This document shows, piece after piece, positions 11,895-62,387 of a stretch of DNA of 64,000 nucleotides; position 1 is the stretch's first letter; each line of letters opens with the position of its first letter. Location of the stretch: positions 62,001-126,000 of the IMG/VR virus record IMGVR_UViG_3300020195_000009; one strand, given 5' to 3'. This stretch comes from a virus. The notes below the pieces were generated by a model. It searched no databases, was not told where the DNA came from, and saw nothing but the letters and a program-made list of their open reading frames with translations. The translations under genes were made by a program, and so were the position numbers.

Positions 11895-12464
11895 TCAGAG
11901 GATCGTCCCCACGCCTACACCAGCGGCGGGGTTGGGCCCAGGAGCACCCACAATAGGACTAGGAAGTTGGAGAGCTGTGAAAACGATGTCCAGAGCGCTT
12001 CCAATGGCGGTAGCCATCTTGATCGAACCAGGGTTGGTCATCCCCTGAGTGGCAAAACCTGCGATCATTGCAGGTACCGCCGATGCGGACTTGAAGGTGC
12101 AAACGCAGGCGCCGACCCCCACAGTCGGGTGCGCCGTGACCACGGATGCCTGGAGGAACGCCAGGTTTAGACCCGTTGCCAGCCCCATAATCGTCAGAGG
12201 GGCCATCACCCCAAGGATATTTTGAGCCGCGAAACCGAAAGTTAGGGCAGGGATGAATAGCTGAAATGGGACCAAAAGAGGAACCGTCCCTACACCCGTG
12301 CCCGAGAACCCTGTATCCGCAGTAAGAACCGTGAGGGTGTGCGCCCACGTGTTGATCCCCGCTGAGACACCGGAGGCGAGCTTGATCGCACCTGGTCCGA
12401 TGTGTAGGACGCCCGCTAGCTGGATAGCGAGAATCGCTGTTGCACCTGGAATCGTAAGCGGCAT
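11895..12464 (-). CDS. Hydrophobic, low-complexity protein next to the spike (possible spike-tip partner)
   Basis: The 189 residues are almost all small or hydrophobic (A, G, L, I, V, T, P) with very few charges. Examples are GAGAIKLASG-like runs and FTALQLPSPIVGAPGPNPAAG at the C-terminus. A GACVCTF motif near residue 120 holds two cysteines. The ATG lies four bases after the stop of the 39-codon reading frame that carries the second copy of the spike C-terminus, and no good ribosome binding site is visible, so coupling to upstream translation is likely. Composition suggests either a buried structural part or a membrane-interacting protein delivered by the spike. A PAAR-like tip was considered, but the family signature is not evident. 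Confidence 0.5.
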   Translation of the reverse strand: MPLTIPGATAILAIQLAGVLHIGPGAIKLASGVSAGINTWAHTLTVLTADTGFSGTGVGTVPLLVPFQLFIPALTFGFAAQNILGVMAPLTIMGLATGLNLAFLQASVVTAHPTVGVGACVCTFKSASAVPAMIAGFATQGMTNPGSIKMATAIGSALDIVFTALQLPSPIVGAPGPNPAAGVGVGTIL

Positions 12465-12467
12465 AAT

Positions 12468-12506
12468 TCAAATACTTCGGATGACAGCGCATCCCTGGAG
12501 AGGGAG
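12468..12506 (-). repeat. Diverged direct repeat, copy B (13 codons incl. stop)
   Basis: These 39 bases encode LPLQGCAVIRSI plus stop and pair with the copy at 13426-13464. The protein sequence is identical, but many synonymous positions differ. The final bases, GAAGTATTTGAAT on the minus strand, are identical in both copies. Confidence 0.8.
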
Positions 12507-12587
12507 ACCTGTGGAAATCGCGGCCGACATCAAGGGTACGGGGGCCACGGACACTGGGGCCATAAGATTGACAGGTGTGAGGGGCAT
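12468..12587 (-). pseudogene. Displaced C-terminal fragment of the spike gene (39-codon frame)
   Basis: From the ATG at 12587, one base after the HNH stop codon, a frame of 39 codons ends in LPLQGCAVIRSI. These are exactly the last 12 residues of the spike protein encoded upstream. The codons differ at many third positions (for example CTC CCT CTC CAG against CTT CCA TTG CAA), so this is not a recent duplication. The preceding residues (APVSVAPVPLMSAAISTG) do not match the spike. The simplest reading is that this is the old 3-prime end of the spike gene, left behind when the HNH element arrived with its own version. It could still be translated by coupling to the HNH gene, or it could be a genuine short protein. 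Confidence 0.5.
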
Positions 12588-12588
12588 T

Positions 12589-13407
12589 TCAGGTCGTACT
12601 TTGGGGAACTGGAGCCGCAGACTCCAAGTAGTCAGCGAGACGACGGAACGCTCCGGCATCCATACAGTTCTGCTTCATCGTGTTCGCCAGGTGACTGATG
12701 ACCGCGATATTACCTGGGACGTACCCGAGGGTCGGGTTGATGCGGTCGAGAGTCATCGAGCGTTGACCTACCTTACCTACACCTCGTTCAAAAGGTTCTT
12801 TGGTGATGGGACACTGCCCATCCAAAGGGATGATCTTCACAATGTCCTCAAGGGTGATCGTGAAAGGTAACCCGAATCGACGGGCTCTCTGACGAGCACA
12901 CTTTAGGAGCAGCTTCCCTGGGTAGTTCTGATAATACTCCCGTTCTTTGCGACGAACCTGGTCTCCGTTTTCAAGACGATACTGCCTGGCAACCTCTCTA
13001 AGTTTTTCAGCGTTATCAGCGTAATACTTGTTGTTGTACTCCTTGTACTCTTCGCGATTAGCTTCTCGGTGAGCCTGTTTAGCGATGTGAGTCTTCTCAG
13101 CATTCGCCTCATGCCAAGCCTTCTTTTGGACTCTAATCCGCTCCTTGTTGGCCTCCCGATACACCCTCAGCTGTTCCTTCTTCTCCTCTGGAGTCTGTTG
13201 AATTGCCTTCGTCCGTTGCTCGTAGGCAGTGGCTCCAAACTTGGCGATCCACCAACGTCGGAGGGTTAGCCGGACGATGCCGAAGCGTTGAGCAACTGAA
13301 GTGAAAGTTTCTCGGGTGTGGAACGCTTCGTAGGTCTCTTCAGGACGGACAGGAGAGGGGGGCATGACTCTGATTGCTAACACATCCCTTGAACGATTGC
13401 CAATCAC
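12589..13407 (-). CDS. HNH homing endonuclease, free-standing
   Basis: The C-terminal 90 residues hold an HNH-type nuclease core: CPITKEPFE, then SMTLDRINPTLGYVPGN, then IAVISHLANTMKQ. The DRI-N-GY-PGN-AN pattern is typical of phage HNH endonucleases. Residues about 20-65 look like a helix-turn-helix (FTSVAQRFGIVRLTLRRWW). The middle is a long basic helical stretch with loose repeats of the REAN-KE type, probably lying along DNA. The GTG at 13407 gives 272 residues; the ATG at 13365 is an alternative and neither has a clear ribosome binding site. The gene is wedged between the spike gene and a second copy of the spike C-terminus, which is the signature of a homing insertion. Confidence 0.9.
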   Translation of the reverse strand: MIGNRSRDVLAIRVMPPSPVRPEETYEAFHTRETFTSVAQRFGIVRLTLRRWWIAKFGATAYEQRTKAIQQTPEEKKEQLRVYREANKERIRVQKKAWHEANAEKTHIAKQAHREANREEYKEYNNKYYADNAEKLREVARQYRLENGDQVRRKEREYYQNYPGKLLLKCARQRARRFGLPFTITLEDIVKIIPLDGQCPITKEPFERGVGKVGQRSMTLDRINPTLGYVPGNIAVISHLANTMKQNCMDAGAFRRLADYLESAAPVPQSTT

Positions 13408-13425
13408 ACTCTAAGTGTTTGATAT

Positions 13426-13464
13426 TCAAATACTTCTTATCACGGCGCACCCTTGCAATGGAAG
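13426..13464 (-). repeat. Diverged direct repeat, copy A (3-prime end of spike gene)
   Basis: This is the last 13 codons (including stop) of the intact spike gene, matching copy B at 12468-12506, 958 bases away. The HNH endonuclease gene lies entirely between the two copies. Confidence 0.8.
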
Positions 13465-15609
13465 AGACGTTATCCAATCCAAACTCGGCGAACCAGGGGG
13501 GTGCATCGGCAAACCACGGCAAACACCGAGGACTGCGGGGGGTCCCCCCAAGAGGACTTGAATGGACGTCAACGAGATCGCGATGGCGGCCGTGATGTTT
13601 ACTGCAAGGCCTGCTGTGATGGCAATGGCTCCAGCGGCGGCAGCCATCGAGATAGCTCCGGCTGCCGTGGTCATCGAGATGGCTCCGGCTCCTGTTGAAA
13701 TCGAGATGGCTCCGGCTCCAACCGTGATGGAGTAGGCACCCGCAGCGCAGTTCCAAGCCACGGCCCCTGCCGCAACGGTGTACGTCATCGCCCCGGCAAG
13801 AAGGGTCGTGAGATGAGCCCCGGCCAGCGTGGTGCTGATCTTACCCCCTAGTGCAATCGTCTCCATGTACTGGAGGGCAAAGGTGTTCTGAGTCTTCCCT
13901 GAGATGAAGTTGCTCAGCTCCCCAGCGGTGAGCGCATACCCGTTGAGGGCGTTGATGTTGACCTTGCTGGCTTGAAGAGAATAACCCCCTGAAACCTTCT
14001 TGGTGTAAGCACCGTTGACGGTCTGAGTGTCGTTTCCAGAGATCGTCGTCTCATCGTTGCCCGTGATGCTCGCACTGCGGGCGATGTCATCCTCATCCAT
14101 GACCCCGTGGTAGCTGTTTTGAACCGAGCTTCGGAAGTGGGTCTTGATCGCCTGACCTGTTGAACTCGATCCGCAATCTAGGAAGATGCCGCCTTCACAT
14201 GTCAGGTGGATGGATAGTTTGTCGGGAGTGGCCGCTCCGATGCGAGCCTTGAGGCCGCCCTCCAGGTTGATCTCAGCCGAGACGTTCTTCGTAGGGTAGT
14301 TCTCGACGCTAGAACCTGGGATGTTGACGAAGAGCTTACCCTGCTTGCTTACGGCTACCGCAAATTTGCTCTTTGACGCACTCCTGGGGGGGTTCATCTG
14401 GAAGAGGTAAGCCGCAGCCATGTTGAGGGCCTCATCCACGCCAACACTAGGGGGACGAGCGGCCTCGTCCATTCGGAACCCGCTTGGGTTCCCTATCTGA
14501 TCGAAGTCCTCGAAGAGAACCGGCTTGAGGATACGCCCGTACTGACGTTGACCAAGGGTTGAGAAGGAGTCGTTACCGATGACCGTCCCAAAGACCTGCT
14601 CGATGTAAACCTTGGGGCGGTCCATCGAGAAGCCGTCGATCTCCTCCAGTACCTCTTGACGGAGATCCGTATCGTGCCGGATCTCCAAACGGCGTTCCGT
14701 GAAAGCACGTCCCGAACCACCCGTGAGGGCATCCTCAAAGTTGGTGGCTGCATTACCAGAGGGATAGTAGACCTGTCTTCCGTTGGAGTACGTGAGAGGT
14801 GGGAACTCCTCGTTGTCGTTGATGCGATCGAGGACCTTGCCGGTCTCTGTGTTCAAGTACGTGTTGGGTGGGATCCCTGCGTCAGCAAGCTCATCCCGTC
14901 CAAAGTAGCGTTGCTCGACCGTTCGGACAGTTTTACCGAAGGTCCCGTCCTTTTCCTTTTGGAAGATGTCGAGCGGAAGATTCATCTCCCCTCGTCGGGC
15001 GGCCCCAGAAAACAAGTAGCAGGCCGAGTCGGACTCGACTCGATGAATCGCTTGGGAGATCAGCGTCCGATCAACCGCTCGAAGCTCAATGAGGTCTCCT
15101 GCTTGGTTGCAAAACTTGACGTCGGAGGAGAGGTGCATCTCCGATCCAGACGAACTCATCCCCATGATGTCGCCGGGACGACCCATCATCCGCTTGAATC
15201 GGATGGTCTTCCCGTAGAGTTTGTCGATATCCGCTGACTCCTCGGCCGTAACCGCACCTGGGTCTACGGGAGAATGAGGATCAAACCGAAGCCCAAGCTT
15301 GTTCCCAGTGGGGATGTAGCCGACGATCACAGCATCGTAGAGCTGCTTTTGACGGCGTCGGTATGCGACGATGACAAGAGAATTGACCTCCGGGATCCCG
15401 CCCAAGAAGCTGCGGGGACCGCACATGGCTTGGGTGAGGTCTACCTCGAACCGCTCCTCCGATCCGGTGACCATCCGAAGATCCGCCTTCATGTTGATCT
15501 CATCCACTCGCGTGATGAGGGCGATCTTTGTACCGGAGAACGGAGCATTATCCCCGCTGATGAACTCCTTTCCTGGGATCTTACCGACGGGTTGCTTAGG
15601 GAAGCCCAT
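13426..15609 (-). CDS. Baseplate central spike, gp5/VgrG-like puncturing protein
   Basis: Residues about 25-125 form an OB-fold-like region (ITRVDEINMKADLRMVTG, then VIVAYRRRQKQLYDAVIVGY), as found in gp5 and VgrG. The middle third is a mixed domain without recognisable lysozyme motifs, so the T4-type lysozyme appears absent. From residue about 580, short beta repeats of the AGAISISTGAGAISMTT type run for about 90 residues, as expected for a trimeric beta-helix needle. The end is LPLQGCAVIRSI, perhaps a metal-binding or capping tip. Muralytic activity is instead predicted in the neighbouring 692-residue protein. The last portion may have been exchanged by the downstream HNH element. Confidence 0.78.
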   Translation of the reverse strand: MGFPKQPVGKIPGKEFISGDNAPFSGTKIALITRVDEINMKADLRMVTGSEERFEVDLTQAMCGPRSFLGGIPEVNSLVIVAYRRRQKQLYDAVIVGYIPTGNKLGLRFDPHSPVDPGAVTAEESADIDKLYGKTIRFKRMMGRPGDIMGMSSSGSEMHLSSDVKFCNQAGDLIELRAVDRTLISQAIHRVESDSACYLFSGAARRGEMNLPLDIFQKEKDGTFGKTVRTVEQRYFGRDELADAGIPPNTYLNTETGKVLDRINDNEEFPPLTYSNGRQVYYPSGNAATNFEDALTGGSGRAFTERRLEIRHDTDLRQEVLEEIDGFSMDRPKVYIEQVFGTVIGNDSFSTLGQRQYGRILKPVLFEDFDQIGNPSGFRMDEAARPPSVGVDEALNMAAAYLFQMNPPRSASKSKFAVAVSKQGKLFVNIPGSSVENYPTKNVSAEINLEGGLKARIGAATPDKLSIHLTCEGGIFLDCGSSSTGQAIKTHFRSSVQNSYHGVMDEDDIARSASITGNDETTISGNDTQTVNGAYTKKVSGGYSLQASKVNINALNGYALTAGELSNFISGKTQNTFALQYMETIALGGKISTTLAGAHLTTLLAGAMTYTVAAGAVAWNCAAGAYSITVGAGAISISTGAGAISMTTAAGAISMAAAAGAIAITAGLAVNITAAIAISLTSIQVLLGGPPAVLGVCRGLPMHPPGSPSLDWITSLPLQGCAVIRSI

Positions 15610-61733: not shown

Positions 61734-62387
61734 TTATCGCGGGTTGGCGAAGGTGAACGATGTCGTGAACTGAACAGCGCCTCCCGTGGATCGAACAAAC
61801 ATCGTTGAAACAAGTCCGAAAAACCCAGTGAGTTCCTTCCCAAATGGGATCAGCATCTCCGGCCCACCCGGATCGAAAGCGACGTACAGAGGGTTCGCCC
61901 CATCGAGATTGAGGATGCGAACATTCTCCATAGCTCTTGGTAGATCGAGCTGGAGAGCGTCTGCGATCCCAGTCCCGGTCGGAGCACTCGCCGTGAACCC
62001 CGATTGCAACGGCCCGGTGAACGGGGGGAGCACCAAGGTTGCCGCCCCCGGTGCCGGAGTGACCATTTCGGCGCTTGCCCCATCGATGTAAACAAGCTTG
62101 ATCCAAAACGCATCCGTATCCGACAGGGAGAAGTTGGAAGGCTTGAAAATCATCCGAACGTTCTCGCCCGGTTGAATCACATGCTGAGGGCCCGCTACCT
62201 CAGGGTCCACCTTTCCTGTTCTGGGGACGGTCATCACCGTGGTCGCGAAAAGACCCCCTGGGTTGTTGGCGACATCCGCCTTGAGCCGGTACTGTTCAAC
62301 CAGCTCCGATGCAGGTCGGATCGGAGTGATGAGATCGATCAGGCCGGGTTTGCGACGAAGGATTGAGAACAGGCGGGGGGCTGTCAT
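61734..62387 (-). CDS. Virion-type protein (217 residues), unknown
   Basis: The sequence starts with a basic segment (RLFSILRRKPGLIDLITPIRP), and the remainder is beta-rich (HVIQPGENVRMIFKPSNFSLSDTDAFWIKLVYIDG and STGGAVQFTTSFTF). It lies between an FmdB-like gene and the 107-residue beta module, in a run of virion genes. Head decoration is possible. No family is recognised. Confidence 0.55.
   Translation of the reverse strand: MTAPRLFSILRRKPGLIDLITPIRPASELVEQYRLKADVANNPGGLFATTVMTVPRTGKVDPEVAGPQHVIQPGENVRMIFKPSNFSLSDTDAFWIKLVYIDGASAEMVTPAPGAATLVLPPFTGPLQSGFTASAPTGTGIADALQLDLPRAMENVRILNLDGANPLYVAFDPGGPEMLIPFGKELTGFFGLVSTMFVRSTGGAVQFTTSFTFANPR

Follow-up and report, generated by a model that had tools for sequence, protein, structure and literature searches.

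Why should the last residues of a phage spike protein be encoded a second time, behind an endonuclease gene? The question is raised by a stretch of 64,000 nucleotides (the window; positions 62,001 to 126,000 of IMG/VR record IMGVR_UViG_3300020195_000009, a 286-kb virus record), in which the minus strand carries, in this order, gene T, the spike gene, an HNH endonuclease gene, a 39-codon open reading frame (ORF), gene D and gene B. The original prediction was that the HNH gene had arrived with a diverged replacement for the spike C-terminus, leaving the old end behind as a displaced fragment. We find that the spike protein retains its normal C-terminus. With good confidence, the second spike end is the scar of a single out-of-register joint, which brought together an HNH-occupied and an HNH-empty version of the same gene boundary, and not part of a gene in use.

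The duplication itself is as described. The peptide LPLQGCAVIRSI with its stop codon is present at 13426-13464 and, behind the HNH gene, at 12468-12506, an offset of exactly 958 bases. The two copies encode identical protein from DNA that matches at 29 of 39 positions; 9 of the 13 codons are different and every difference is synonymous, in agreement with the synonymous codon use noted before. The spike ORF ends ...LDWITSLPLQGCAVIRSI and the 39-codon ORF ends ...AAISTGLPLQGCAVIRSI, each followed by its stop codon. When all 2116 stop-terminated open 14-mers of the window were scored against the spike ends of relatives, the last 14 residues of the fragment ranked first and the real spike end second, with scores of 31.4 and 29.0 (next 9.4; mean -15.5, standard deviation 5.6), from which we conclude that the second spike end is not due to chance.

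In-depth searching was done in public viral contigs, where spike searches yielded 25 and 34 loci; these were reduced to 35 distinct lineages including the window (loci and lineages carry L numbers below). Most spikes of HNH-free relatives end in the conserved pattern RG-PM-PPG-PSLDWITGLPLQG---RSI, and about 25 HNH-free lineages (L010, L012, L015-L018, L020-L028, L037-L042 and others) have the type of end that the window spike has. The present end is therefore not a foreign replacement brought by the HNH gene, and a foreign functional C-terminus is ruled out; the expectation that HNH-free relatives would match the fragment and not the present end turned out to be the reverse of what is found. 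Since both ends in the window consist of the same conserved 12 residues, the supposed functional replacement of the spike tip did not take place either. The spike end of the window shares ITSLPLQGCA-IRS with that of L013, its closest spike relative, which is expected of a native end, yet a clade-mate donor could also account for it. A breakpoint inside the window spike relative to L013 was sought and not seen, and identity to L013 at synonymous positions does not climb towards the 3' end of the gene.

The residues preceding the shared 12 do differ between the two ends, as had been noticed, but they are not diverged spike sequence: the start of gene D lies among them, and only the last 14 codons of the fragment are spike. 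D proteins begin MPLTPV-L or similar (MPLTPVNLTA... in L013). The start of the fragment, MPLTPVNLMAPVSVAP, is the second-best D start among the 1103 ATG-opened 16-mers of the window, the best being D itself, and its best match is the D of L013 (MPLTPVNLTAAITVGL; score 55, next 45). Codons 1-8 are firmly homologous to D, and homology is likely as far as about codon 16. The lead-in APVSVAPVPLM, taken earlier for old spike sequence, occurs in no HNH-free relative's spike and follows this D start. With a D-like start and a spike-like end, the fragment is a truncated D start joined to a spike tail. Its borders fit the same description, as the truncated D copy begins 1 nucleotide past the HNH stop (TGA-A-ATG), which is expected for the order spike - HNH - D, and the spike tail is followed by the ATT-ATG of the complete D, which is expected for an HNH-free spike-D boundary. 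Base composition is alike in the fragment, D and the flanks. The in-frame state of the 39-codon ORF may reflect either chance or selection for translation. A search with the degenerate MPLTPVNLMAPV pattern found nothing. If the fragment arose by such a joint, VNLMAPVSVAPVPLM is not expected in the upstream part of any relative's intact spike.

The complete gene D is also foreign to what lies on its left. In T, the spike and B, the window resembles L013 and L008 (spike identity 73% and 67%, respectively; the values for T and B are in Table 1), with D at only 40% and 33%, while the D proteins of L008 and L013 are 57% identical to each other. The spike tree supports the groupings of the window with L013 (98/96) and with L013 and L008 (100/99); in the 35-row spike tree, a group of the window, L013, L008, L037 and L038 is supported (99). 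The D tree rejects the grouping of the window with L013 and L008 (approximately unbiased test, p-AU 0.0074 with 18 rows and 0.00036 with 35 rows), as well as the larger group with L037 and L038 (p-AU 0.0158). Derived shared residues in D number 23 for L013 with L008, against 2 and 2 for the other pairings; T favours the window with L013. Judged from these comparisons, it is the whole of gene D, and not just the spike stub in front of it, that is phylogenetically foreign relative to the left side.

These observations can be combined in a single mechanism. To the left of the joint, which would lie between about 12513 and 12564, the DNA would derive from a phage in which spike, HNH and D' followed one another; its D' survives as the first 8-25 codons. 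To the right, it would come from a related phage that is HNH-free at this place, starting with the last 14 codons of the spike gene and running on through the complete D. Because only one of the two partners has an HNH gene between spike and D, joining them out of register yields two spike ends and one-and-a-fraction D genes. The most likely trigger is a cut by the HNH nuclease close to the spike end of the HNH-empty partner, after which one broken end would have been repaired through long shared homology and the other closed illegitimately. In phage T4, homing-nuclease breaks with one-sided homology are closed in this way, at microhomology on the other side (PMC2988022), and by analogy the window probably records one-sided repair of an HNH-made break. 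The two halves of the chimera, the foreign position of D, the recurrence of HNH genes at this site and the joint change of spike tail, HNH content and D in another phage pair (below) are seen directly; we infer that the break was the work of this HNH, in a single event. D would then be the protein really exchanged, the spike having kept its normal C-terminus.

Table 1. Coordinates of the features discussed, in numbering of the window.
Feature	Coordinates	Strand	Evidence or remark
Gene T, 1132 residues	15612..19010	-	Left flank; groups with L013; 71% identical to L013, 65% to L008
Spike gene, 727 residues, complete, ordinary C-terminus	13426..15609	-	phrog_694, E=4.9e-10; relatives align to the last residues
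LPLQGCAVIRSI + stop, first copy, at the end of the spike itself	13426..13464	-	'ITS' variant common to the window and its closest relative L013
Free-standing HNH/endonuclease VII-like gene, 272 residues	12589..13407	-	phrog_3322, 3.5e-28; phrog_1035, 1.3e-14
Chimeric 39-codon ORF, truncated D start + spike tail, in frame	12468..12587	-	Probable product of the joint
Truncated copy of gene D, 5' end, MPLTPVNLMAPVSVAP..., at most 25 codons	12513..12587	-	Ranking of D starts; match to L013
3' end of second spike gene, TGLPLQGCAVIRSI + stop, then ATT + ATG of D	12468..12512	-	As at an HNH-empty spike-D boundary
Gene D, 189 residues, complete; three HHE (helix-helix-strand) repeats in one chain	11895..12464	-	Phylogenetically foreign to the left flank; candidate spike-tip protein
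Gene B, 2072 residues	5648..11866	-	Right flank; groups with L013/L008; 65% identical to each

The HNH gene is a gene of its own between conserved genes, outside any intron or intein, since the spike is complete upstream, D is complete downstream and there is no Rfam intron. Its motif, CPIT...SMTLDRI..GYVPGNIAVIS..AN, is intact in the window and conserved among orthologues, and the protein is 54% identical to the HNH of L002/L019 at the same site; Pfam gave no convincing match for it, and a search with the window HNH protein found nothing. Site-specific cleavage and biased inheritance are predicted properties only. The spike-D boundary is occupied by an HNH gene or a remnant in 10 of the 35 lineages and otherwise empty, a distribution for which the spike tree requires 7 or more changes. 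HNH genes are present at this boundary in L019, L029, L046 (with a broken frame), L053, L057 and L062, and remnants in L013 (57 residues), L008 (31 residues) and L047; L014 has an HNH-like ORF at its contig end. Without an HNH gene, D starts at the spike stop or a few bases from it, often overlapping (TGATG); with one, D starts at the HNH stop or a few bases from it. In L053, two different HNH genes lie in tandem between spike and D, with a few bases of overlap. The remnants of L013 (6212-6385) and L008 (6174-6269) keep the C-terminal part of the gene up to the start of D, as if that part had been preserved by translation into D and the remainder lost by deletion. In L018 and L019, additional zinc-finger/HNH-like ORFs, of 242 and 286 residues, lie between D and B, so nucleases can occupy either side of D.

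Occupancy tends to go together with a codon in the spike gene. The penultimate serine of the spike is encoded by AGT in seven carriers (the window, L008, L013, L019, L046, L047 and L053) and by TCN in nearly all non-carriers. AGT (AGY) serine is found in 7 of 10 HNH carriers versus 1 of 19 non-carriers (Fisher p 0.0005, uncorrected for kinship); over six independent pairs the association stands at 3.6 to 0 in favour (p 0.125). The AGT serine of carriers could be either part of the nuclease target or a flank carried along with the gene.

An exchange of the same kind is seen between two related phages. L058 and L062 are 99.3% identical over 5374 bp on the left, almost as far as the spike end, and over 3127 bp on the right. 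The cassette in between consists, in L058, of a spike tail, D and a 418-residue HNH-type ORF and, in L062, of a diverged spike tail, a 163-residue HNH gene and a D that is 64% identical to that of L058; the nuclease is thus to the right of D in the former and to the left in the latter. Relative to L058, the L062 spike tail has scattered changes from about 220 nucleotides before the stop, and these become dense over the final 90. Between the two phages, the nuclease content thus changes along with the spike tail and D, and either allele could be the invading one. L063 gives the same picture of a cassette around the spike end and D. In another pair, L056 and L062, identity is 72% left of D and about 86-88% from the start of D onward. 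The steps in both comparisons identify the spike-D boundary as a recurrent breakpoint. The original idea of an endonuclease element associated with two spike ends therefore survives in part: the ends come from diverged phages, an HNH gene lies between them and HNH content changes with the spike tail in L058/L062; what falls away is the lead-in as old spike sequence, with spike making up only 14 codons of the fragment, and the functional replacement of the tip.

The spike is of the baseplate hub/tail lysozyme-like, gp5/VgrG type by its phrog_694 match; its profile had no match among PDB sequences. A confident AlphaFold2 model of D (predicted local distance difference test score, pLDDT, 91.5) contains three helix-helix-strand units, and profile comparison of its thirds gave probabilities of 95.5% (1-2), 82% (2-3) and 56% (1-3). 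D gave no match below E 0.001 in PDB and BFVD, the D profile gave none among PDB sequences, and a search of viral contigs with the window D protein found nothing; the D alignment is too variable for a pattern search. A three-repeat chain encoded behind a spike gene makes D a candidate for the tip: it may cap the trimeric spike as PAAR proteins do, as a candidate new pseudo-threefold spike-tip protein that would be PAAR-like in role and not in sequence.

Which of the two partners was the incoming one can be told in two ways; both variants share the core of the scar interpretation, so that their likelihoods do not compete with its own. In the one we give nearly an even chance, the ancestor had the order spike - HNH - D', as in L013 and L008, and a foreign piece comprising a spike tail and D entered the beginning of D' and took the place of the remainder. 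This is the most economical account of HNH presence in the clade, given the remnants in L013 and L008, and it fits the incongruence of D alone between two L013/L008-like flanks; B is weakly informative, however, and apart from a break in the donor there is no known driver for the left joint. In the other, somewhat less favoured and still a serious possibility, an HNH-carrying clade-mate donated the spike 3' end, the HNH gene and the D start, while the resident D was kept, the right side was closed illegitimately and the old spike end was displaced. It comes closest to the original prediction, save for the lead-in and the supposed functional replacement. The T4 pathway is known (PMC2988022), a similar layout exists in the Glomus and Allomyces mitochondrial atp6 hybrids (PMC3630166), the fragment resembles an HNH-empty target (AGTATTTGAAT-TATG), the occupied sites of the window and L019 have AGTATTTGAATAT in common, and the spike tail changes with HNH content in L058/L062. 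Against it, a separate earlier exchange of D in the L013-like phage would be required, an HNH gene was apparently already at the site in this clade, to judge by the remnants in L013 and L008, and the synonymous positions show no rise in identity to L013 towards the spike 3' end.

Other explanations have less in their favour. The 39-residue ORF could be a working small protein, kept because it takes ribosomes across the gap between the HNH gene and D or for the sake of the spike end peptide: the joint is in frame, the ORF starts 1 nucleotide after the HNH stop and ends 3 nucleotides before the D start, and genes here are normally coupled (TGATG). We consider this improbable, as one joint in three would be in frame by chance and a scan of the nine other loci with an HNH gene or remnant showed no second spike end or chimeric ORF. 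The fragment as a conserved independent gene, which the original prediction had named as a finding that would count against it, is likewise ruled out by its absence from these other HNH-occupied gaps. An assembly chimera is more improbable still: the record derives from a metagenome, the arrangement is represented by a single copy and the one contig identical to the window (L001/L009) ends within the spike, but the ORF is open in frame across the joint, composition is alike throughout and D fits between its flanks with normal spacing. HNH genes are often located in introns, and a group I intron or intein could in principle be spliced out so that the second spike end is used. This was rejected and is hardly credible, because no Rfam intron matches between 11000 and 16000 even at E<=5 and the spike is complete before the HNH gene, with the conserved end.

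Returning to the scar of an out-of-register joint, several observations weigh against it. The closest relatives found are 73% identical in the spike and 52% in D; with none closer, the joint is placed within a range and not at a single base, and the comparisons point to no donor. Searches of named phages gave no match with the DNA of the region and, with the spike, a single distant one (LR745208.1, 25%); the spike alignment had no match in bacterial genome contigs. In addition, the spike stub of the fragment has the AGT serine typical of HNH carriers, so its source may itself have been an ex-carrier; a search for HNH-empty AGY-type spike ends returned only the carriers L013 and L019. Finally, D is exchanged often in this family (the correlation of identities is 0.68 for spike and D versus 0.90 for spike and B), and it could have changed in a separate earlier event.

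Among the closest known systems are the mob genes, free-standing HNH homing endonuclease genes of T4-like phages, with one-sided illegitimate double-strand-break repair (PMC2988022). The window resembles them in having a stand-alone HNH gene where two conserved genes meet, with flanking sequence exchanged along with it and one side closed illegitimately. Unlike in that case, the scar in the window leaves a truncated downstream gene together with a displaced upstream gene end, and cleavage and homing are here predictions. Barth et al. (2023) described nuclease genes at boundaries of phage genetic exchange, tail operons included (PMC10448857). As in these homing endonuclease gene islands, nuclease genes bound the exchanged structural genes in the L058/L062 cassette; the window itself shows only the incongruence of D beside an HNH gene. 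The exchanged piece differs in its size of about 1 to 2 kb, in lying around a single presumed spike-tip gene and in its visible misjoint. The likeness to fungal mitochondrial genes, drawn originally for atp6, holds for the layout. Hybrids with mobile endonuclease ORFs are known for Allomyces atp6 and Glomus atp6, atp9, cox2 and nad3, and in Glomus duplicated C-termini lie about 1 kb apart around the endonuclease ORF and differ mainly by synonymous changes (PMC3630166), as they do here. It does not extend to the content: in the window, both ends belong to one conserved spike family, the start of the downstream gene comes before the second, with just 14 codons of spike in place of a continuous piece of old host gene, and the downstream gene, which is foreign to the left flank, would be the exchanged part.

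The window is thus a new example of a known, nuclease-linked exchange and not a functional swap of a C-terminus, which corrects the tempting reading that the spike had gained a new one. Such exchange is usually inferred from mosaic maps, whereas here the scar holds the HNH-occupied and HNH-empty versions of one site in a single genome, with nuclease genes going with exchange of the puncturing-tip region between phages. More tentatively, the nuclease genes at the spike-D boundary of these large phages may be engines that repeatedly exchange the spike tail and the tip protein D, which would have a new three-repeat fold, the window being a misjoined product. If the HNH protein cuts the empty spike end, a selfish nuclease would be tied directly to the diversification of the cell-puncturing tip.

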